From assembly GCF_001889305.1 (NCBI RefSeq), contig NZ_CP013074.1, forward strand, positions 248,001 to 312,000: DNA of 64,000 nt. Direction: 5' to 3'. The translations under genes and the position numbers were made by a program. Position 1 is the first letter of the stretch, and every line of letters starts with the position of its first letter. Under the pieces are notes generated by a model. The model saw only the letters and a program-made list of their open reading frames with translations, had not been told where the DNA came from and made no database searches. Source of the stretch: Dehalococcoides mccartyi (GTDB lineage: Bacteria; Chloroflexota; Dehalococcoidia; Dehalococcoidales; Dehalococcoidaceae). Shown in pieces: positions 357 to 35,988 of the stretch.

Positions 357-752
357 CTATCCTCCAGGTAAAAGCTTCTTACCGGTTGCTTTCTCGTACA
401 TCTCGACAATGAAACGCTTCACATCGGTAGTAAGCCCACCCTTGATGCGGGTACCTGATTTATACCTGGGATCGTTCATTACGTAGTTGAAGGCCATCTC
501 GATTTCATCATTCTCACTTATAGAGATGTCTTCATCTTTCAGGTACCCGGCAGCCTTGAGTAGATCCCTCACCGGCACATCATAGACAGGAGCGAGCTTC
601 TTCAGGATATCTGCGCCCGGTATAGGTCGCTGGCCGCGTTCGATGAGTCCCAGGTATGAGTTCGAGACGCCGGACTGCTGTTCAACTTCCCGCAGTGATA
701 GCCTCTTCTCAACCCTCAAGGTACGGAGATATTCACCGAAGTTCTCCACCAT
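357..752 (-). CDS. XRE-family transcriptional regulator (element repressor candidate)
   Basis: A 131-aa protein with an N-terminal Cro/CI-type helix-turn-helix (about residues 7-62: LRTLRVEKRLSLREVEQ, then GVSNSYLGLIERG). The C-terminal 65 residues are acidic and of unknown fold. The gene is divergent from a second XRE gene at 911 and is followed at once by an ImmA-like gene, which is the layout of a phage or ICE lysogeny switch. A strong ribosome binding site (AGGAGGTGAGG on the minus strand) precedes the ATG. It probably represses the divergent promoters at 776-878. Confidence 0.85.
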   Translation of the reverse strand: MVENFGEYLRTLRVEKRLSLREVEQQSGVSNSYLGLIERGQRPIPGADILKKLAPVYDVPVRDLLKAAGYLKDEDISISENDEIEMAFNYVMNDPRYKSGTRIKGGLTTDVKRFIVEMYEKATGKKLLPGG

Positions 753-910: not shown

Positions 911-1153
911 ATGGTTAAGGTAAAGTTGAACCGGGTCGCTTTTGAAGTTGCCATGTCGAGGAAAAACCTCTCTCAGCGTGACCTCGCAGAGAAGATAGGC
1001 TTTTCCCGTAGTCATTTGTCTCACATCATCAACGGGAGACGAGAGCCCTCGCCGGTTTTAAGACGCCTTATCCTAGAGCATTTACCCGAATACACTTTCG
1101 ATGACCTGTTTGTCATTGAGGAGAATGGCGGCAATGTCCGAACCAACGATTAG
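911..1153 (+). CDS. Small XRE-family regulator (Cro-like)
   Basis: An 80-aa protein that is almost entirely one helix-turn-helix domain (SQRDLAEKIGFSRSHLSHII followed by NGRREPSP, about residues 21-50). It starts the rightward transcript and is divergent from the larger XRE gene, so it occupies the Cro position of a phage-like switch. Its size leaves no room for a sensing domain. It may repress the leftward promoter or activate the rightward operon. Confidence 0.8.
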   Translation: MVKVKLNRVAFEVAMSRKNLSQRDLAEKIGFSRSHLSHIINGRREPSPVLRRLILEHLPEYTFDDLFVIEENGGNVRTND

Positions 1154-1355
1154 CGATTTCGATAATAGTCTGCGGATCCTAGCACGGATAATTGCCCAAG
1201 CATATTTGAAAGATTTAGCTAAGAAACCAGTAAAAACGTCATGCGATTCAAATATTACGAAGGAGGACGACAATGCCAATCAAAGGTGTGACCGGAGTGG
1301 TGAGGCTTCCCCGCCTGGGAAAATTAAGGCTGGGAGTAAAGAAAGAAAATGCTAG
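1134..1355 (+). CDS. Small hypothetical protein, doubtful
   Basis: A 73-aa frame begins at ATG 1134 behind GAGGAG at about 1118. It overlaps the end of the preceding XRE gene by 20 nt and the start of the next gene by 83 nt in another frame. The first 40 residues look protein-like (helical, ending in AYLKDLAKKPVK). The overlapping tail is low complexity. The long overlap with a gene that has a strong ribosome binding site makes the C-terminal part suspect. No function is recognised. Confidence 0.3.
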   Translation: MSEPTISDFDNSLRILARIIAQAYLKDLAKKPVKTSCDSNITKEDDNANQRCDRSGEASPPGKIKAGSKERKC

Positions 1356-2253
1356 CGGAATATCTTACCCCTGCCCGACGGATCATTTTGTCTGCCCGGA
1401 AGAGGTCAAGAAGGTTTTTGGTGAAAAGCCTAAAGAGTTGCGAATTATGTTCCCTACCGATGACCAGACTCAATGGGCTAGCCAGTATTTAAGATGTTAC
1501 TCGGCATCGAGAGGACTCGTTTGCCGCGGCGACGGTGAAACGGCAGTCGCCAAGGTTGACACCCGTACCGGTGAGATTGCCAACAGAGATTCTGTTGAGA
1601 CGGAAATGAAGGAAATCACCTGTAATCCGGCCAAGTGTACCTTCTATCAAGTAGCACGGTGCCGCCGAGTAATGAACCTACAATTCCTTTTGCCTGACTG
1701 TCCCGGCTTCGGCGTTTACCAGCTCGATACCAGCTCCTTTTATTCTATTGTAAATGTTAATTCCAGCCTTGAACTGATTCGCGGTACCTGCGGCAGACTA
1801 TCAATGATCCCGCTGTCACTCAAACTTGTTGAACAGGAAGTACAGCCGGAAGGAAAGAAAAAGACGGTCCGGGTCCTCAGCATGACAGCGCCGTTTTCAT
1901 TGGTCGAAATCCAACGATACGCACAAATTCCACCCGGGCAGGTCTTACTCCTACCTCCGCCCGACAATGAAGCACCTGATGATCTTTTTCCGGACGAAAT
2001 CCTGGGTAAAGAAGAACCTGCGAAGACAATTTTGGGTTCGGACAAAGATTTAATGCTGCTCTGGGACCGTGTCAAGAGTAAGGTCTGGCAAATGAACATG
2101 CAGGATTACCAAGTATCAAACTGGTTTCAAAAGAACTGTAACCTTGATGTCCATATAACCGATTTTGATCTTTTGACACCTCCGAACAGGATTAAGGCCG
2201 AGTACTTGGAAAACTTCTTGAAGACCTTGGAACGATATACAGATCGCAGCTAG
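1273..2253 (+). CDS. Gp3-like recombination directionality factor family protein
   Basis: A 326-aa protein preceded by GAAGGAGG 8 nt before the ATG. The opening MPIKGVTGVVRLPRLGKLRL, the following CPTDHFVCPEEV and the LRIMFPTDD segment match my recollection of the phage Gp3/RDF family, which is often annotated as hydrolase or metal-binding protein. It has scattered Cys residues (CNPAKCTFYQVARCRR, about residues 118-133) that could bind zinc. Known members switch serine integrases from integration to excision. No serine integrase is visible here, so the partner may lie left of the window or the protein may have another role. Family by recall: moderate to good confidence. Confidence 0.65.
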   Translation: MPIKGVTGVVRLPRLGKLRLGVKKENASGISYPCPTDHFVCPEEVKKVFGEKPKELRIMFPTDDQTQWASQYLRCYSASRGLVCRGDGETAVAKVDTRTGEIANRDSVETEMKEITCNPAKCTFYQVARCRRVMNLQFLLPDCPGFGVYQLDTSSFYSIVNVNSSLELIRGTCGRLSMIPLSLKLVEQEVQPEGKKKTVRVLSMTAPFSLVEIQRYAQIPPGQVLLLPPPDNEAPDDLFPDEILGKEEPAKTILGSDKDLMLLWDRVKSKVWQMNMQDYQVSNWFQKNCNLDVHITDFDLLTPPNRIKAEYLENFLKTLERYTDRS

Positions 2254-2302: not shown

Positions 2303-4498
2303 ATGACTGAACTTGTTTTTTCAGAAGCTGTTCCGCAACTCCTGGCTGAGCATCTTACTCATCTAAGTGAAGGAAGCGGTATTAGTCTCGATGTCATCAA
2401 AGAAAGAGGCTACCGGAGCATACTCGGTAAAGACGAGCTTGCCAAAGCGGGGTTTACCTCGTCTCAGCAGAGAACTACCGGTATCCTCATTCCCCTGTGG
2501 GGAGTTGATGGCGGGGAGGTAGGCTATCAGTACCGCCCGGATAACCCCCGTTCGGATTCAAGGCAACGGCCAGTAAAATACGAGTCTCCTGTCGGCTCAT
2601 CGAATCATTTAGATTGTCCTCCTCGTTGCAAACAGATGCTCGGGGATCCAAAAACACCGCTGTGGATAACTGAAGGCTCCAAGAAAGCCGATGCCTTGGC
2701 TACACACGGTGCCTGCGTGATTTCGCTTACCGGTGTCTGGGGCTTCAAGGGTAAAAATGAGTTCGGTGCTATTACTATACTTTCGGACTGGGACCGCGTT
2801 GCTATTAAAGATCGGTTAGTCTATCTCGCCTTCGACTCTGACATTGTCTCCAAGGAGATGGTACGAAAAGCCCTCGAACACTTGGGCGAACATCTCAACC
2901 GCAAAGGTGCCACTATTCTGGTCGTTTATCTTCCTCAAGAAGGTAATCAGAAAGTTGGCATCGATGATTATCTGCTTAACCATACACTTGAAGAAGCCCG
3001 GAAACTGGCGACTGATTTCAAGATTGATGATACAGCGAGCAGAGAGCGATTCGTCCCGGGCTTTGTCCTGCATGACGGCACCGTAGGCGAGATGGTAGTT
3101 AGCAAAGAGGATGAGCGTGCCTTTATCATTGTTGTCAACGGCTCGGTGCGCAAGGTCTTTCGTTACGAGACACCCAAGGCTATATATCTTCCCACCGACG
3201 ATCCCCTAGTAACCGAGGTCGTCCACTTTGCCCCCACTGCCACCCCTTATGATTCACAGGCACGTTTGTTTGAAGAGATACGGAGTTTTGTTCACAAGTA
3301 TCTCGAATTGCCGGCTGACTTCGAAGAAATCTCTTCTCTCTACGTGCTTCTTACCTGGGTATATGAGTTTGCTCCCTCAATACCTTACCTACGGGTAATA
3401 GGCGATTGGGGTACCGGCAAGACACGGTTTCTACAGGTGGTAGGCAGTATCTGCTTCAGGCCGACATTCGCGTCGGGAGCTACCACGCCAGCACCGATAT
3501 TCCGCATTCTGGAGCAGTTCCGGGGGACTCTTGTCTTGGATGAAGCCGACTTCAAGGATTCTTCATCCTGGGTGGAGATGGTCAAACTCTTGAACAACGG
3601 TTACCGGCCGGGTATGCCCGTACTCAGGGCAGACAAAGAAAATGGCAAGTGGTTTCCTCGGAGCTACCAGGTGTTTGGTCCGAAACTTATCGCTACCCGC
3701 TTCCCTTTCAAAGACGAGGCGCTGGAAAGCAGATGCCTAACCTCCGAGATGATGTCGCTGACGCGCGATGATATTCCCAGGGTACTACCGCCGACTTTCG
3801 ATAAAGAGATAGATGATCTGAGGGCGAAATTATTGACCTTCCGGCTGGCGAACCTGATTAAGCTCAAGGGTAAAACCTTCGGCAATGACCTGCTGGAACC
3901 TAATCTTCAACCCCGCTTACAGGAGATTCTCATACCGCTCAAAGCGATGCTTAATGGCGACCGCTCCATGGTCGAAGCAATCACCGGCTTCGTTCACCGT
4001 CTCCAGGACAGCCTCTTTATACGAAGAAGAGAGAGCGCCCCAGGCCGAGTACTGGCGGCGCTGATGGAGCTTCATGAAGAAGGCAAAGAACTAACGTCTG
4101 AAAACGTGGCCAGGAAAGCCAATGAAACTGACGATGAAGTAGAGCAACTCAGTGCGGAAAAGGTTGGCAGAATGACGAAGCGATTGGGTTTTGCCAAAGA
4201 GCGGACTGGGAAGTCACGGCAACGCCTTATCTGCTGGGATGAGAACAGAGTTACCAAACTAATAGGGTCCTACGGGTTGCAGATGGCTCTTCCATTATCC
4301 CAGGAAAAACCGTCCGAACCGTCCTTACTGTCCGCTTTAGCTACAAAACAGGCGGACAGTAATAAAGGGGGCTCCGTATACCGTCCGCCATACTGTCCGC
4401 CAAAAACTGAAGCTGACTCAAGCGTGGGGGCGGACAGTAGGACAGAGCGGACAGTAACTGACGATAGATTAACAAAGGAGGCAAGTGGCGGTGAGTAA
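2303..4498 (+). CDS. Primase-helicase-like replication protein (DUF3854/Toprim N-terminus, P-loop C-terminus)
   Basis: A 731-aa protein. Residues about 20-250 resemble the DUF3854 Toprim-like primase region (LWITEGSKKADAL near 120 and YLAFDSD near 175, supplying the acidic metal-binding positions). Residues about 350-560 hold a helicase-like P-loop domain with GDWGTGKTR near 370 and TLVLDEADF near 412 as Walker A and B. The final 65 residues are Pro/Ser/Thr/Glu-rich and look disordered. The DNA encoding that tail contains five iteron-like repeats. The likely role is replication initiation of the excised element. The start ATG is preceded by GAAGGA. Confidence 0.75.
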   Translation: MTELVFSEAVPQLLAEHLTHLSEGSGISLDVIKERGYRSILGKDELAKAGFTSSQQRTTGILIPLWGVDGGEVGYQYRPDNPRSDSRQRPVKYESPVGSSNHLDCPPRCKQMLGDPKTPLWITEGSKKADALATHGACVISLTGVWGFKGKNEFGAITILSDWDRVAIKDRLVYLAFDSDIVSKEMVRKALEHLGEHLNRKGATILVVYLPQEGNQKVGIDDYLLNHTLEEARKLATDFKIDDTASRERFVPGFVLHDGTVGEMVVSKEDERAFIIVVNGSVRKVFRYETPKAIYLPTDDPLVTEVVHFAPTATPYDSQARLFEEIRSFVHKYLELPADFEEISSLYVLLTWVYEFAPSIPYLRVIGDWGTGKTRFLQVVGSICFRPTFASGATTPAPIFRILEQFRGTLVLDEADFKDSSSWVEMVKLLNNGYRPGMPVLRADKENGKWFPRSYQVFGPKLIATRFPFKDEALESRCLTSEMMSLTRDDIPRVLPPTFDKEIDDLRAKLLTFRLANLIKLKGKTFGNDLLEPNLQPRLQEILIPLKAMLNGDRSMVEAITGFVHRLQDSLFIRRRESAPGRVLAALMELHEEGKELTSENVARKANETDDEVEQLSAEKVGRMTKRLGFAKERTGKSRQRLICWDENRVTKLIGSYGLQMALPLSQEKPSEPSLLSALATKQADSNKGGSVYRPPYCPPKTEADSSVGADSRTERTVTDDRLTKEASGGE
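4326..4456. repeat. Five 10-bp iteron-like repeats (GCGGACAGTA), candidate origin
   Basis: GCGGACAGTA occurs five times in 131 bp: inverted at 4326-4335, direct at 4352-4361, inverted at 4391-4400, direct at 4430-4439 and direct at 4447-4456. The first two and the next two form inverted pairs with 11-bp arms. All lie in the low-complexity 3' end of the primase-helicase gene. Clustered repeats inside or beside a replication gene are the usual architecture of plasmid and phage origins. The origin role is inferred. Confidence 0.6.
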
Positions 4499-6410: not shown

Positions 6411-7232
6411 GTGGATGACCAGTTTTTAGAAGAAGTTAAGAAACGCAAAGAGCAGGGGCAATCGGAAAGGCAGATGGCAACAGAACTCGGGGTGAGCCGC
6501 AGTAAGGTCCACAATGCTTTACAGGATCTCAAGCTATCGGATACAGGCACTTCCCTGGTGCCGGAAGACAAGCTGCGGGTAATTATCCGGGAAGAGCTGG
6601 AGCGGGTCCGTAACGGGGAGGAAGAAGAGGCAAAAACCAGCAGTGAGTTTCCCATCATACGCAAGATGGGCGGCGGCATGGAAATGATTGCTCCTGAAGC
6701 GGTGCTCAAGCACTACATGGGAGGCACTCCCGAAGGTGAGGTTGAGCTACGAGCCATCATGAAGTTCCGGGCAGCCATGCTCATGGTGATGGACCTGGTG
6801 AATATTCAGAAGGGTTCGGCTGAGGCTGACGCTAGACGTATGGAACCTATTCTAAGGCTGATGAAAGAGACACGGGAAGAGCAGGATGCGGCGGCAGCCA
6901 GGGCAAAGTCTTCCAGTGAGGAGATCGCCGAGCGAACCGCTCAGGCAACAGCGGGTCAACTATTTGGAGCAATCTCGCAGAGCAACACCCAGGTAAACAG
7001 CACACTGGCTCAGATCAAGCAGATGGTTGGGGGACAGGCGAACGACCCCTTCAGCCAGGTTGTAAGTATGCTCCAGTCCATGCAGCAGATGTCCCAGATG
7101 TTCGGTATGCCAATGCCCGGCATGATGCCGGGAGTGCCGCAGGGGGGCGGAATGCCCGGCAGTCAACCGCCGTCGGACCCGCAGCCGATTGAAAAACACA
7201 CCGCTAAAGAATGGGAGGAAAGAAATGTTTGA
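6411..7232 (+). CDS. HTH protein with Met/Gln/Pro-rich C-terminus
   Basis: A 273-aa protein from GTG 6411 behind AGGAGG (6401-6406). Residues 5-45 contain a helix-turn-helix (RQMATELGVSRSKVHNALQD) like resolvase/MarR-type DNA-binding tails. The middle is charged and helical. The end (about 200-260) is methionine-, glutamine- and proline-rich (MQQMSQMFGMPMPGMMPG). It opens the long 6.4-22 kb operon. It could be a regulator, a packaging or segregation adaptor, or a scaffold. Confidence 0.65.
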   Translation: MDDQFLEEVKKRKEQGQSERQMATELGVSRSKVHNALQDLKLSDTGTSLVPEDKLRVIIREELERVRNGEEEEAKTSSEFPIIRKMGGGMEMIAPEAVLKHYMGGTPEGEVELRAIMKFRAAMLMVMDLVNIQKGSAEADARRMEPILRLMKETREEQDAAAARAKSSSEEIAERTAQATAGQLFGAISQSNTQVNSTLAQIKQMVGGQANDPFSQVVSMLQSMQQMSQMFGMPMPGMMPGVPQGGGMPGSQPPSDPQPIEKHTAKEWEERNV

Positions 7233-8502: not shown

Positions 8503-8715
8503 ATGTTCAAAACACAGCAACTGACCGGGCCGGTGGCACCAGGACAATTTAACCCAGCGCAGGTGAGTGGTCCTTCTAGTTATTATCCGACCCAGACGAC
8601 TGGGACCGACTGGACGAGTATGTTCTCGGCCATGATGCCAATGATCATGATGATCATGATGATGGCCATCCTTATGCCCATGTTGAAGGGCGTCACCGCG
8701 TCTGCCAAAGACTAA
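8503..8715 (+). CDS. Methionine-rich membrane-anchor protein (paralogue 1)
   Basis: A 70-aa protein: a polar, Gln/Pro/Thr-rich N-terminal half (residues 1-38), then a single hydrophobic span in which about half of the residues are methionine (MFSAMMPMIMMIMMMAILMP, about 41-60), then a short tail. The downstream gene is a close paralogue. The same MF-x-MPMIMM type anchor ends the proteins at 14365 and 16958. Strong ribosome binding site GAGGAGG. No family is recognised. Confidence 0.75.
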   Translation: MFKTQQLTGPVAPGQFNPAQVSGPSSYYPTQTTGTDWTSMFSAMMPMIMMIMMMAILMPMLKGVTASAKD

Positions 8716-8758
8716 AAATCTGACTTATCGTAAAAGACTTTGAGGAGGTAATCGAAAA

Positions 8759-8956
8759 ATGTTCACAGCACAGCAGTTCGCCGGCCAGCAAATAAGGCCG
8801 CAGCAATACCAGTATGGCACCGTCTCGGGTTATTACCCGGCACAAACCACCGACATGACCAGCATGTTCTCAGCCATGATGCCAATGATCATGATGATCA
8901 TGATGATGGCTATCCTTATGCCCATGATGAAGGGCATGACCAGTTCCAGCAAATAG
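8759..8956 (+). CDS. Methionine-rich membrane-anchor protein (paralogue 2)
   Basis: A 65-aa tandem paralogue of the preceding gene. MFTAQQFAG parallels MFKTQQLTG, SGYYPAQTT parallels SSYYPTQTT, and the methionine-rich span is nearly identical. The N-terminal halves differ more, so the duplication is not very recent and the span is under constraint. Ribosome binding site GAGGAGG. Possibly an abundant small membrane component, like a minor coat or membrane protein of a lipid-containing particle. That role is inference. Confidence 0.75.
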   Translation: MFTAQQFAGQQIRPQQYQYGTVSGYYPAQTTDMTSMFSAMMPMIMMIMMMAILMPMMKGMTSSSK

Positions 8957-14301: not shown

Positions 14302-14364
14302 GGAGTATGAAGTGATAAATTGCATAGATTTACGCTACCGGAAATGGTTAATAGGAGCAAGACG

Positions 14365-15621
14365 ATGAGATATGCGTTGATATCGAAAGGGCTAACCCTT
14401 TCTGATCTTATAGCGGAAGCAAAGAAAGTTGGCGCTCGTGATATTACCAGGACGAAGCTTGTTGAGCAGGTCTTTTGCGAGATGGATGAGAATCAGGCAA
14501 AAGCTCTGGCGAAAATTTCCGGTCTGGTAGTAAAACCTGTTAAAGCATACCTTACCAACCAGGTCGTTTCCGTAGCGCAACCTGTCGAGACCATCTCTGA
14601 TGTATTTTATCTATTGCGTTCCTACTTTTCACCGCCGCTCACTGGTACTGGTTTAACCGTAGCGGTGTTGGACAGTGGTATTCGTAAGACCCACGAATCA
14701 CTTCAGAACAAGGTGATTTACGAGGCTAACTATACTGATTCGCCTTCCGCTAGCGACGTCTTCGGACATGGGACACAGGTAGCTTTCATGATTGCCGGTG
14801 GCATGCATGCGCTGGGATATAAAGCTGGCATCTCACCAGGTGCGACCTTGATGAATATTAAGGTTATCAGTGACGAGGGTATCGGCAACGATGAAGACAT
14901 CGTAATGGGCATCGATCGTGTTTGCGAACTCGCGGAGCAAGCCAGAAGTAAAGGATTTTGGGCGACTGATGAACTCTATCCCAATGTTATCAACCTATCT
15001 CTGGGTGCCGAAGACGACGGCGATCCTGATAATCCGGTAAGAGCTGCTTGCCGCAAAGCCAGTACGGTATATGGATTAGACGTTATCGCTGCTGCAGGTA
15101 ACTCTGGTCCCAATATGACCACGATAATGCTACCAGCTTGCGATCCGGAAGTGATCGCGGTAGGAGCAGTAGAAACTACCGGCGATCTGATCATCTGGGA
15201 AAAATCTTCCCGCGGCCCAACTGTGCAGGGAGAAACCAAGCCTGATTTCGTTATCTGGGGTACTAACCTGGAAATGGCCAGCAACAAGGCTGACGATGAA
15301 TATCTAACCAAATCAGGGACTAGCTTTGCAGCTCCTATGCTGGCTGGACTTACCGGACTTCTCTGGGAAAGCGGGCGGCGGGCTTATGGTGAGAGTTGGT
15401 CGTTCCGCTGGACGGATGCCCGCCAGTATGCTCTCTATTTTTCGACCAAACCATCGGATGCACCCGTTAATAAGGATAATGCTTATGGTTATGGTCTACC
15501 GGCTATGGGAACGATGTTGGGAGAAGTAGCCCAGGTGAGCTCTTCGAACCTGCAAGGAACCGAAATGTTCCCGATGATAATGATGATGGCGCTGATGTCG
15601 GCTCTTACGGGAGGTGTTTAA
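14365..15621 (+). CDS. Subtilisin-family (S8) serine protease with Met-rich C-terminal anchor
   Basis: About 418 aa from ATG 14365, chosen because AGGAG lies at 14353-14357; an in-frame TTG at 14320 lacks a ribosome binding site. Residues 1-70 resemble an I9-type propeptide. The catalytic triad is visible: Asp in VAVLDSGI (about 103), His in GHGTQVA (about 135), oxyanion Asn in AAGNSG (about 246) and Ser in SGTSFAAP (about 320). The last 20 residues (MFPMIMMMALMSALTGG) are a short Met-rich hydrophobic anchor like that of the 8503, 8759 and 16958 products. It probably processes structural proteins or degrades the cell surface. Confidence 0.9.
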   Translation: MRYALISKGLTLSDLIAEAKKVGARDITRTKLVEQVFCEMDENQAKALAKISGLVVKPVKAYLTNQVVSVAQPVETISDVFYLLRSYFSPPLTGTGLTVAVLDSGIRKTHESLQNKVIYEANYTDSPSASDVFGHGTQVAFMIAGGMHALGYKAGISPGATLMNIKVISDEGIGNDEDIVMGIDRVCELAEQARSKGFWATDELYPNVINLSLGAEDDGDPDNPVRAACRKASTVYGLDVIAAAGNSGPNMTTIMLPACDPEVIAVGAVETTGDLIIWEKSSRGPTVQGETKPDFVIWGTNLEMASNKADDEYLTKSGTSFAAPMLAGLTGLLWESGRRAYGESWSFRWTDARQYALYFSTKPSDAPVNKDNAYGYGLPAMGTMLGEVAQVSSSNLQGTEMFPMIMMMALMSALTGGV

Positions 15622-19550: not shown

Positions 19551-19848
19551 ATATGCGAATCACGAAGAATTTGGGATCAACGCTCCGATAAACTACCGGG
19601 AAGATTCTACTAGCGAGTCTTTCCTTAAAGGTATGTCGGTAATTGCTCCATCGGGTATGAAGCCGAAGGTCTTGCGAGGTAAAAAGTTCGAGGAGAAAAC
19701 CGATTTCAAGGCTTCCGCACGGTGGCACAAGAATTTCGATTTAGCGATGTTCGGTGGCTCAGATATCGGGACGTCAAATTATGAATCTAATCAAATGAAT
19801 TTAGAAGGAAAAATCAATGGCGTAAAAAGAATACCCGGGAGGCAATGA
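19543..19848 (+). CDS. MGKYA-family protein (paralogue 2)
   Basis: A 101-aa protein from ATG 19543 behind GGAGGT. It is homologous to the 70-aa product of 8161 over the first 75 residues (MGKYA, EF, PINYRE, GM then IAPSGMKPK, DLAMF), with about 27 extra C-terminal residues. ATGA overlap joins it to the DUF192-ArdC gene. No known family is recognised. Confidence 0.65.
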   Translation: MGKYANHEEFGINAPINYREDSTSESFLKGMSVIAPSGMKPKVLRGKKFEEKTDFKASARWHKNFDLAMFGGSDIGTSNYESNQMNLEGKINGVKRIPGRQ

Positions 19849-21497
19849 TGGCAGGACAGGTCAAAATAACGATTGGAGATAAAGAGTGGTTAGCTTCCCT
19901 ATCCAGCACATACTGGGAGTTGGTGCAAGGACTTGGCGGTATTCCCGAGATGGAGGCCGGTACGGGAATGCTATTCGATTTGGGTTTTACTCAGGATATC
20001 ACCGTAACCACTGAGCCGATGCTTTTCCCGCTGGATATTGCCTTCTTATCCGAGGACATGGTAATTACCGAGATCTATCGCAATGTTCAGCCGGGATATC
20101 TTGTACATGCAACGATACCTCCTCGTTATTTCATTGAGGTTAATGCCGGTGAGCTTGAAGGTATAGAAGAAGGCGCCCAAGTATCGTTTGAATTACTGAC
20201 CCTTGTAAGCACCGTAGAAGCCTCTGATTGGATGACTCCGATGATTTCCCTTATGGGTTTTACTCTAATGGGTGTTTTCGCAGTAAGCCTGGTACGTGAC
20301 TTGGTGAAAGAACAACCGGAGGAGGTCAGGCATCTACGGTTGGTTAAGTCCAGTCGATCTGATGCTGGCTTGCTAGATCCCCGACGTTTTCCAAAAAGGA
20401 CCGAATCACTGAACAGGCTCGGAGCTTATGATGTGGTTCATGTACACGATGATGGCGATCTAACTGTCCTCAGCCGCGGCAAGCTGTATGTAGTAACTAC
20501 CGGAGGTGAAGTCTTCAAGCAGGAGCCCGATTCTTATGACAGCCCAAACCAGGTAGCTGGAGCATGTGAGAGGATTTCGCCACAATATTACGGTCTATTG
20601 AGGTGGGTTGGTGTTCCGTTGCCGGACTACAGCTTCGCGATTGAATCCGAAGTCAAAGAACGCAAGATTGACGATGTTTTGAAACGGCTCAAGGAAGGGG
20701 TCGATGGTATCCAGCAAAGCGACAACTTTAGGACATTCTTGCTTACCATGTCCAAGTTTCACGATTACAGCATCGGTAACTTGATACTGATCATGCTCCA
20801 GAACCCTGACGCTACCCGGGTCGCCGGTTTCAGTACTTGGAAAGGTTTATATCGTTGGGTTAAAAAAGGCGAAAAGGGAATTGCTATTCTGGCTCCGTGT
20901 ATGCCTCCTAAGAAAAAGATACTTGAACCTTCTGAAACTGAGACTGCACAGGATGAAGAGGAAACGGAGATCCGACCGATCTATTTCAAAGTGGTCCACG
21001 TTTTTGATGTTAGTCAAACAGAAGGGAAACCTCTTCCCGAATTTGAAGTTCCACCTCTTACCGGTGAAGCAAATGAAAAATTATTTGAGCAAGTTATGCA
21101 TCTGGCAGAATCACAAGGCCTTGAGGTCAGTTTTGAATCAAAGCCGGATCAGGATCCGGATATCAAGGGTTACTACACGGGCAAAAGTATCTGGGTTCGA
21201 CCGGAAGAATCACGAGCTCAGCAATTAAAAACACTGTTGCATGAAGTTGCTCATTATTACTCTGAGGGGGTATTTCGCATACCACGGAGTGATGCCGAAA
21301 CCATTGCCGAAAGCGTGGCATTTACTATCGGCGCTCATTATGGTTTTGACACCGGTGCCCGCTCATTCCCCTATGTAGCAATCTGGTCCAAGGATAAGAA
21401 AGTTCTTGAAGCTAACTTGGCTGCTATACGCAAAGTAGCAGACAAGATATTCGATGGTCTTGAGCAAACCGCCAGAAAATTGATAGAGGTAGCCTAA
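19845..21497 (+). CDS. DUF192 - membrane span - ArdC-like - zincin metallopeptidase fusion
   Basis: A 550-aa fusion. Residues about 40-118 resemble DUF192 (GMLFDLG, PLDIAFLSEDMVI, then RYFIEVNAGEL and GIEEGAQVSF). A hydrophobic span follows (about 131-151). Residues about 265-390 match the ArdC N-terminal DNA-binding domain (SKFHDYSIGNLILIM, FSTWKGLYRWVKKGEKGIAI). Residues 400-550 are a zincin with HEVAH at 466-470 and a downstream Glu in AETIAESVAF. ArdC proteins protect incoming DNA from restriction. Membrane anchoring and the DUF192 part are unusual and suggest delivery at entry or packaging in the particle. Confidence 0.8.
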   Translation: MMAGQVKITIGDKEWLASLSSTYWELVQGLGGIPEMEAGTGMLFDLGFTQDITVTTEPMLFPLDIAFLSEDMVITEIYRNVQPGYLVHATIPPRYFIEVNAGELEGIEEGAQVSFELLTLVSTVEASDWMTPMISLMGFTLMGVFAVSLVRDLVKEQPEEVRHLRLVKSSRSDAGLLDPRRFPKRTESLNRLGAYDVVHVHDDGDLTVLSRGKLYVVTTGGEVFKQEPDSYDSPNQVAGACERISPQYYGLLRWVGVPLPDYSFAIESEVKERKIDDVLKRLKEGVDGIQQSDNFRTFLLTMSKFHDYSIGNLILIMLQNPDATRVAGFSTWKGLYRWVKKGEKGIAILAPCMPPKKKILEPSETETAQDEEETEIRPIYFKVVHVFDVSQTEGKPLPEFEVPPLTGEANEKLFEQVMHLAESQGLEVSFESKPDQDPDIKGYYTGKSIWVRPEESRAQQLKTLLHEVAHYYSEGVFRIPRSDAETIAESVAFTIGAHYGFDTGARSFPYVAIWSKDKKVLEANLAAIRKVADKIFDGLEQTARKLIEVA

Positions 21498-26346: not shown

Positions 26347-26430
26347 AGCTTACTACTAGATGAAGCCGATAGCCTTGCCCACTGTCGGATAGTCAAAAGG
26401 GGGTGTTCCAATAGAACAATTGAATATTGA

Positions 26431-26446
26431 GGGCAAGCGTTCAGGT
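26431..26446 (-). repeat. 16-bp repeat, right copy of an inverted pair
   Basis: GGGCAAGCGTTCAGGT, the exact reverse complement of 25634-25649. It lies in the leader of the clamp gene. Confidence 0.6.
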
Positions 26447-26518
26447 GAGGGCTTTTGTGCTCACAAGGCGATACTGGTAAACGCTCTATCAAGAGCACTA
26501 GCCGAAAGGGTAGTGCTT

Positions 26519-27679
26519 ATGGACTTCACGATAGGGCGTAAAGGCTTTCTTACCTACATTAAGTCATTAGGCGGGAGTAATGTCGTTAAAGTCGTTCCCT
26601 CGTCTAACGGCAATGCCAGCGGGTTGCGGGTTGCCGATAAAAGACTGAAGGTGGTCTGCGGAGCTAATACCAGTTACCTTGACGATATGGCTTGGGTAGG
26701 TGATAAAACACCTCTAACACTCTGCGATGTCAGGGTAAGCCCATCAAATACTGTCAAGCCTAACCTCGGAGCACTGGAGCTATCGGAAGCACTGTCAAGA
26801 GTAGTGCCGTTCACCGCTAAAGAGGATAACAGACCAGTTTTACAGTGTGTCCTCTTTAAGGTGGCAGACGGCAAGCTCACGATGGTAAGCGCCGATGGTT
26901 ACAGGCTGGCGATGGTGAAGTTGGACTTTGACGGTGATGAGGGGCAAGTCCTGATAAATCGGGATGAGCTAAGGGGGGTAATTAGTGCCCTGCGAAGGGC
27001 ATACAGGGTGAGGGTGGGCTTTGAGAAAAGCGGGGAAAGCCTTGACGGAATGAGCCTTGTTCTGGACACGGAGCTAATCCGCTATAAATGGCGGGGGGCT
27101 GATGGGAACTTTCCCGAATACGAGAAGCTGATACCCGCCGACTTCAACACCTTTGTTAGCTTTGACACTAACGAGGCAATCAGGGCGGTAAGCTCACTCA
27201 AAGTCCTGTCCGATAGCAAGGCATACCCGATAGACCTCACAATCGGCAACGGCAAGCTCACAATGTCCAGTCCCGATGATAAGGGAATGGCAGAGATACC
27301 CGCCGATACACAGGGCGATGGCAAGATAAGACTGGATGGCAGTTACCTTGCTGACGCCTTAAGAGCTTGTGGCGGGATGGTAGAGCTAAAGCTGGTCAAT
27401 AGCCAGTCTCCAATGCTTTTTACCAGTCCCGACTATGAGCTTGTGGTAATGCCGATGTTTGCTGGTGAAAGTCAGAAGCCGAAAGGTGAGGCACAGACCG
27501 CCGAGCCAGTCAAGGCAGAAACCGAAACCACCGAGGATACAGAGCCAACCGAGCCAGAAGCCGAAATGGTAAGCGAAGCCGAGAAAGCCAATGCTGTAGC
27601 CGAAGCCGAAGCAATTACCAAAGCCGAGAAGCCGAAGCGGAAGCGAAGCAAGGCAAGAGAACCAGTCGCCGTAGCATAA
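26519..27679 (+). CDS. Diverged DNA polymerase III beta sliding clamp-like protein
   Basis: About 386 aa from ATG 26519 (GAAAGGG 8 nt upstream), which begins with MDFTI like other clamps. The frame is open upstream to TTG 26420, and AAAAGGGGG at 26395-26403 is well spaced only for a non-standard ATA at 26411. Middle and last domains are clear (FTAKEDNRPVLQCVLFKVAD, ADGYRLAMVKL, FPEYEKLIP, ending SPDYELVVMPM). The first domain is short. A Glu/Thr/Ala-rich tail then a basic KPKRKRSKARE end is added. It could load the element's replisome or couple to the sigma-like protein. Confidence 0.75.
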   Translation: MDFTIGRKGFLTYIKSLGGSNVVKVVPSSNGNASGLRVADKRLKVVCGANTSYLDDMAWVGDKTPLTLCDVRVSPSNTVKPNLGALELSEALSRVVPFTAKEDNRPVLQCVLFKVADGKLTMVSADGYRLAMVKLDFDGDEGQVLINRDELRGVISALRRAYRVRVGFEKSGESLDGMSLVLDTELIRYKWRGADGNFPEYEKLIPADFNTFVSFDTNEAIRAVSSLKVLSDSKAYPIDLTIGNGKLTMSSPDDKGMAEIPADTQGDGKIRLDGSYLADALRACGGMVELKLVNSQSPMLFTSPDYELVVMPMFAGESQKPKGEAQTAEPVKAETETTEDTEPTEPEAEMVSEAEKANAVAEAEAITKAEKPKRKRSKAREPVAVA

Positions 27680-35427: not shown

Positions 35428-35988
35428 CACCAACTCATGAGCCATTATATTGATGTTAACTTTTCAGATTGACGATAAATTCGAAGGTTTTAGTTCTGCG
35501 TATTGTACAGTACCGCCCACCATTTTTTAAACGTAAAACAGCCTCCATGATTTAGGTTCATGGAGGCTGTTTTTATTGGTGGCACTAATTTGGCACTAAA
35601 CTTTTTCTGCCGGTCGCTTTTTAGTCAGTCAGAATAATATCAATGCATCAGGAATTTGGGCGAAGTGCTTTTATCGGCAATATTTATGTAGACAGCTGCT
35701 ATTTTTGGTCCAAATGGTTTAAAGTGTGCCAAATGCAGAGTAAACTATGACTAAGCATATTTGCGTAATATAGTACCAATATAGTCCATAATGGGATATA
35801 AATATCTGATACTTGCGTTATTATGTATTATTATGGCTATGTGTAGATTACGTAAATTGAAGTCAGAAACAACAGAGTCCGGAGAAAAGGTAGTAAAATC
35901 CTATACAATGCATATAATACTTGTCTTAAAACGTTAAGGGCGCTTTTTATTATGAAATAATGCCCAATTGATTTGTGGATAAAGCTTT
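35428..35988. other. 561-bp AT-rich gap with a terminator; possible island junction
   Basis: No gene is supported. It contains a strong stem-loop (35535-35573), two direct TGGCACTAA copies (35581-35589 and 35594-35602) and a sequence ACCGCCCACCATTTTTT (35511-35527) resembling a tRNA 3' end, but without the T-arm needed for a real tRNA. Base composition falls sharply here, so a junction between island segments is plausible. Confidence 0.4.
35535..35573 (+). terminator. Strong intrinsic terminator
   Basis: AAAACAGCCTCCATGA (35535-35550) pairs with TCATGGAGGCTGTTTT (35558-35573) around a 7-nt loop, a 16-bp perfect stem ending in T residues. It can act on both strands. Confidence 0.8.

Follow-up and report, generated by a model that had tools for sequence, protein, structure and literature searches.

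An iteron array in the coding tail of a Toprim primase-helicase gene of Dehalococcoides mccartyi as a probable replication origin with the encoded protein as its proposed reader

In lambda, the origin iterons lie inside the coding sequence of the initiator O, and the DNA-binding domain and the iterons vary between relatives as a matched pair. Lambda O, which is neither a helicase nor a primase, binds DNA with its N-terminal part and has direct repeats of approximately 18 bp as iterons. The alpha protein of P4 is a primase-helicase whose C-terminal origin-binding domain is a winged helix, and just 3' of the alpha gene lies crr with its short 8-bp type 1 repeats, which are phased at 9 bp and occur in both orientations. 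In SaPI Rep and SCCmec Cch2, a C-terminal domain binds iterons downstream of the protein's own gene (PMC7581432). Plasmid initiators with a DUF3854 domain are represented by CyRepA1, which was tested experimentally in cyanobacteria (PMC10899382).

The window analyzed here is a 64,000-nucleotide stretch of the D. mccartyi chromosome (contig NZ_CP013074.1, positions 248,001–312,000). It contains a primase-helicase gene on an integrated mobile element, whose left end is the 3' end of a tRNA-Val gene located ~2.1 kb to the left of the window beside a large serine recombinase. The tRNA-Val junction in an element-free relative (Table 1) gives an element length of ~37.7 kb. A second element in the same genome has a replication region that is 86% identical over 11 kb. 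The likeness to SaPI/PICI Rep and ori consists in a self-encoded initiator helicase, an integrated mobile element, and iterons directly 3' of the gene (PMC7581432, PMC6092414). The differences are that the primase of the window is of the Toprim/DUF3854 type, without a match to any known SaPI Rep family; that neither a DUF927 nor a D5/Primase_Cterm helicase was matched, DUF3854 (E = 1.2e-21) being the only domain to reach Pfam's cut-off; that the array is located within the coding tail and lacks an AT-rich segment separating two sets of iterons (AT 0.40–0.57); and that no helper-phage induction is known for the element. The window element thus resembles SaPI-type replicons without sharing all of their features.

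The repeats resemble P4 crr in layout, though not by descent, with copies in either orientation at 9-bp intervals at the 3' end of a gene; crr and ori are separate in P4, whereas the window has one array. Like P4 alpha, the encoded protein is a primase-helicase with a (here proposed) C-terminal origin-binding domain; homology to alpha was rejected, with an hhalign probability of 4.7% over 36 columns around Walker A. With lambda O the locus shares iterons within the initiator gene and matched pairs of domain and iteron, but the putative initiator is a primase-helicase and its proposed DNA-binding part is C-terminal. CyRepA1 and its relatives contain the same Toprim-like DUF3854 domain (tblastn), but the match is limited to this part, the window protein had no match to the CyRepA1 model in NCBIfam, and no comparable array was found in pAQ1. 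A classical iteron plasmid was discarded as a model since no Rep_3/RepA-type Pfam match was obtained; such plasmids combine a winged-helix Rep_3/RepA protein with direct iterons of 18–22 bp, in contrast to the 9-bp words of the window, which are spaced at 9 or 12 bp in both orientations.

Table 1 Features of the window, with positions counted from its first nucleotide.
Feature	Position	Strand	Basis or remark
XRE-type HTH regulator, not tracking the iteron word	357–752	-	Identity comparison; upstream of primase-helicase gene
XRE-type HTH regulator, not tracking the iteron word	911–1153	+	Identity comparison; upstream of primase-helicase gene
Gp3-like recombination directionality factor	1273–2253	+	Pfam PF18897, E = 5.9e-50; upstream of primase-helicase gene
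Primase-helicase gene, 731 aa	2303–4498	+	DUF3854 (Toprim-like) aa 112–228; Walker A GDWGTGKT; Walker B LVLDEAD
C-terminal HTH-like (probably winged-helix) domain, aa ~574–660, proposed iteron reader	4022–4282	+	Sequence follows the word
Iteron array, ~nine sites, pattern > > > < > > < < <	4308–4457		3' coding tail of primase-helicase gene
Left triplet, 9-bp period, AACCGTCCG AACCGTCCT TACTGTCCGC	4308–4335	+	Left edge of the array in relatives with other words: same 9-bp triplet
Site 4 (GCGGACAGTA on + strand)	4352–4361	-	Word copy
Inner pair 12 bp apart, TACCGTCCGC, TACTGTCCGC	4379–4400	+	Word copies
Right triplet, GCGGACAGT A GGACAG A GCGGACAGTA, cores 8–9 bp apart	4430–4456	-	Word copies
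Small Cys/His-rich protein gene, overlapping primase-helicase gene; 5' part inside exchanged segment	4485–4784	+	Identity within versus between types
Element right end	35508–35525		Element-free relative: tRNA-Val joined to sequence matching window 35508

An earlier note on this DNA had reported five copies of a 10-mer, three direct and two inverted, within 131 bp. Their coordinates were confirmed: exact GCGGACAGTA occurs on the + strand at 4352–4361, 4430–4439 and 4447–4456 and on the - strand at 4326–4335 and 4391–4400. The array proved to be even larger, with approximately nine sites, six of them exact or one mismatch off (the one-mismatch copy of GCGGACAGTA is at 4379–4388, - strand) and three degenerate (AACCGTCCG at 4308, AACCGTCCT at 4317, GGACAG at 4440), the latter extending it to 4308–4457. 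Both of the inverted pairs with 11-bp arms described before are present and perfect (4325–4335/4352–4362 and 4351–4361/4391–4401), and an additional 12-bp pair links 4325–4336 to 4446–4457. The two triplets at 9 bp face inward, and the inner pair is spaced at 12 bp. The array is confined to the last 190 bp of the gene, where the encoded protein ends ...EKPSEPSLLSALATKQADSNKGGSVYRPPYCPPKTEADSSVGADSRTERTVTDD..., consistent with the previous description of this tail.

Chance does not produce such an array. No other 10-mer reaches more than two copies per 131 bp anywhere in the 64 kb, and 40 of 40 dinucleotide shuffles yielded at most two copies. In the genome of 1,521,287 bp, the 13 exact copies of GCGGACAGTA comprise the five of the window, five in the second element, and three singles; the 10-mer is therefore not evenly spread, the point on which the earlier note had suggested a genome-wide count, and the array of the second element (753106–753236) has spacing identical to that of the window. 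Across ~479 kb of these genomes, the clusters with at least five copies of one 7-mer per 220 bp were the arrays and one low-complexity gene tail, and when elements with the primase-helicase were read as 20-kb stretches, the array was almost always the densest cluster of a 7-mer.

Selection on the tail peptide, with the DNA repeats as a by-product, would be conceivable where all copies share a frame, as in one group of relatives (type B, see below), whose copies lie in one frame per strand and encode KPF and KG motifs. According to their coordinates, the copies in the window fall into two reading frames on each strand, and hence a single repeated peptide cannot account for them. Moreover, in 2000 codon shuffles of the gene that left the protein unchanged, the tail never contained the word more than twice, and in four related loci (L043, L044, L062 and L064) the stop codon lies inside the array, which continues into non-coding DNA. 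Peptide-level selection is thus refuted for the window and these four loci, and as a general explanation we regard it as scarcely credible. Sites also vary far less than spacers, as counted in variable columns with the sites picked by their likeness to the word, which somewhat favors them: 4/98 in sites versus 25/103 in spacers for type A (p = 4e-5), 8/108 versus 73/161 for type B (p = 3e-12), and 0/70 versus 5/77 for the window type, where divergence is small (p = 0.06). The array is real, and the constraint acts on the DNA, as the earlier note had supposed; neither of the two outcomes by which that note would have had its reading refuted, an even spread of the 10-mer or a lack of raised conservation, was observed.

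Homologues were gathered from 61 and 393 genomes, from viral contigs (these scans contributed only L061–L064), and from contigs of Dehalococcoidales, Dehalococcoidia or Chloroflexi bacteria. At least 20 loci of this class have an array at the same place, with ~16 words that differ by lineage: ACTGTCCGC in the window, AGTGTCCGC, ATTGTCCGC and ACCGTCCGC in type A, ACCGTCACT and ACCTTTCGA in type B, and elsewhere ACCTTCGAA, ATGCTTCGA, ATTGTCACC/AACGTCACC, AACGTAACA, ACTGTCCCC, ACCTTCAGA, AACGTCAGC, AACGGCAGC and ACTGTCGAA, in addition to weaker cases. Copies within one array agree, differences being found mainly at positions 2–4, and the word switches in all copies together. The expectation that related elements would keep the repeats thus held for position and spacing but not for the word itself, which is replaced in concert. 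The geometry of the window, >9>9>25<28>12>38<(8)<(9)<, recurs as >9>9>25<28>12>38<9<9< in L067 and as >9>9>26<26>12>26<9<9< in L062, and types A and B have additional inner sites. In a distant relative (L025:1462–1746), one triplet of a GGTAAC word is located inside the region coding for the HTH-like domain (SVTNVTNVTNVTGEE) and the other near the gene end. Among loci retrieved via the C-terminal domain alone, all five true homologues contain an array; L105 was discarded as a false hit, and L063 has the C-terminal domain with no array visible. Loci retrieved only via the Toprim domain (L026, L027, L048, L049, L051–L055 and L059), several of them truncated, showed no comparable array, which indicates that the arrays accompany the C-terminal domain and not DUF3854.

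Types A and B could be compared on a nearly identical background within one Dehalogenimonas-like genus (name inferred), and one genome (G004) carries A, A and B elements. Between the types, ~700 bp are swapped as a unit, comprising the C-terminal domain, the array, and a portion of the gene that follows: counted from the stop codon, nucleotide identity falls near -560 and is regained near +200, and the boundary in the protein is sharp at aa ~583. Identities within A, between A and B, and within B were.957/.926/.970 for aa 320–510 of the helicase and.946/.946/.975 for aa 510–580, as opposed to.902/.421/.863 for aa 583–660 of the C-terminal domain. Because this domain is exchanged together with the array on a constant background, the reader appears to travel with the array; most likely it is the C-terminal domain of the primase-helicase itself, the best candidate on these sequence comparisons. 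Of the binders that the earlier note had proposed, the same protein is therefore favored, and the nearby HTH proteins are not. Such regulators are indeed encoded close by, but their identities are alike within and between word types (.715/.678/.683 and.598/.553/.599 for the XRE regulators,.674/.651/.581 for the HTH protein at 6411–7232), and the array is not located at a promoter. We consider it very improbable that the array consists of their operators, and as readers these regulators were rejected since their sequences do not follow the word. The downstream AAA protein likewise showed similar values (.869/.842/.850). The small Cys/His-rich protein, as an accessory initiator or centromere-binding protein, could be the reader or a co-reader because the 5' part of its gene belongs to the exchanged segment and the identity of the protein drops between types (.882/.590/.848). 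This drop is weaker than that of the C-terminal domain, which the array also accompanies in distant relatives, and we therefore regard reading of the iterons by this protein as unlikely.

The assignment to the C-terminal domain agrees with a partial Mantel test, in which the word correlated with this domain given the helicase across 20 loci (r = 0.54, p = 0.0002) and with one locus per word (r = 0.32, p = 0.004). By eye, a wing segment tracks the word, with GKxRQR or GKSRTR accompanying ...GTCCGC, HDGRH accompanying ...GTCACC, and SRR/TRR-type segments accompanying ...TTCGA; the GTCCGC group includes a protein that is only 24% identical overall. As this correspondence between wing motif and word was noticed after the fact, we offer it as a hypothesis. 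The C-terminal domain, a probable winged helix, gave no usable match in Pfam or PDB.

The concentration of the word in two arrays of the genome, the constraint at the DNA level, the conserved geometry, and the joint exchange of domain and word are best explained if the array is an origin. It is likely, judging from the sequences, that the array serves as a replication origin and that the primase-helicase binds it with its own C-terminal domain, in the manner of SaPI Rep and ori and of P4 alpha and crr. We infer binding, helicase loading, replication and fork direction as follows. The serine recombinase would excise the integrated element, and the primase-helicase would bind the nine sites via the HTH-like domain at its C-terminus. 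Together with the inner sites, the triplets, which face inward with 9-bp phasing, could then position one or two helicase rings, which would melt and unwind the DNA, while the Toprim domain would prime and the host polymerase would extend. Since the origin would lie inside the initiator's coding tail, reader and sites would be passed on and exchanged as one cassette, so that specificity may shift while the match is kept. GC skew rises at the array in 13 of 13 loci, a weak signal that is confounded by gene content.

An improbable though not negligible alternative is that the array, read by the same C-terminal domain, acts mainly as an operator or incompatibility site that controls copy number or transcription, as do P4 crr and plasmid inc repeats, and that the strands open elsewhere. 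Specific sites co-exchanged with their reader would be expected under either reading; no AT-rich melting region was found in or beside the array (AT 0.40–0.57), and crr of P4 is separate from ori. Against such a role, the 64-kb window contains no second cluster of the word, and SaPI-type origins occupy the same place (PMC6092414). For the origin reading, the interesting part is that reading domain and word are exchanged together while the geometry stays fixed. That this represents a widespread family of initiator primase-helicases, with the origin in their own coding tail and with cassettes of domain and iteron exchanged in a code-like manner on constant geometry, we judge to have a slightly better than even chance. 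The ~16 natural pairs of putative initiator and iteron on one scaffold provide a testable set for how initiator specificity may change without loss of the origin, and the primase-helicase gene with its array could naturally serve as the basis of a vector.

Related arrays were also found beyond this family. The chromosome of the window encodes a second, distantly related protein with Toprim and DUF3631 domains (profile match 99.5%), whose gene contains a 3' array of six copies of TGTTACGGAT (L037:757–898, near 1470.9 kb of the genome). The relatives of this protein in two genomes of the next genus have TGTTGCGGAT instead in each of the six copies, with hardly any change in spacing (arrays of this protein were compared at L037, L033, L039 and L040). 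An archaeal plasmid of Haladaptatus (17.6 kb) carries a rep gene with a related helicase (25%) and, directly after the stop codon of this putative rep, 12 copies of GGTTCAC in both orientations (L116:4302–4586), a cluster that probably represents an unannotated origin. The C-terminal domain of the Haladaptatus protein matched that of the window weakly (hhalign 54%).

Several other genes of the element were observed in passing. The product of the gene at 26420–27679 resembles the beta clamp of DNA polymerase III and has a tail that is acidic and repetitive (AAGCCGA six times at 27475–27636), and the gene at 19845–21497 encodes a fusion of DUF192 and ArdC-N, which is of the antirestriction type. 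At 8503–8956, tandem small genes encode proteins with a hydrophobic Met/Ile-rich stretch (FSAMMPMIMMIMMMAILMPM) that had no family match and may be membrane or coat proteins. Similar stretches recur in further proteins of the element, including the end of a subtilase-family protease encoded at 14320–15621.
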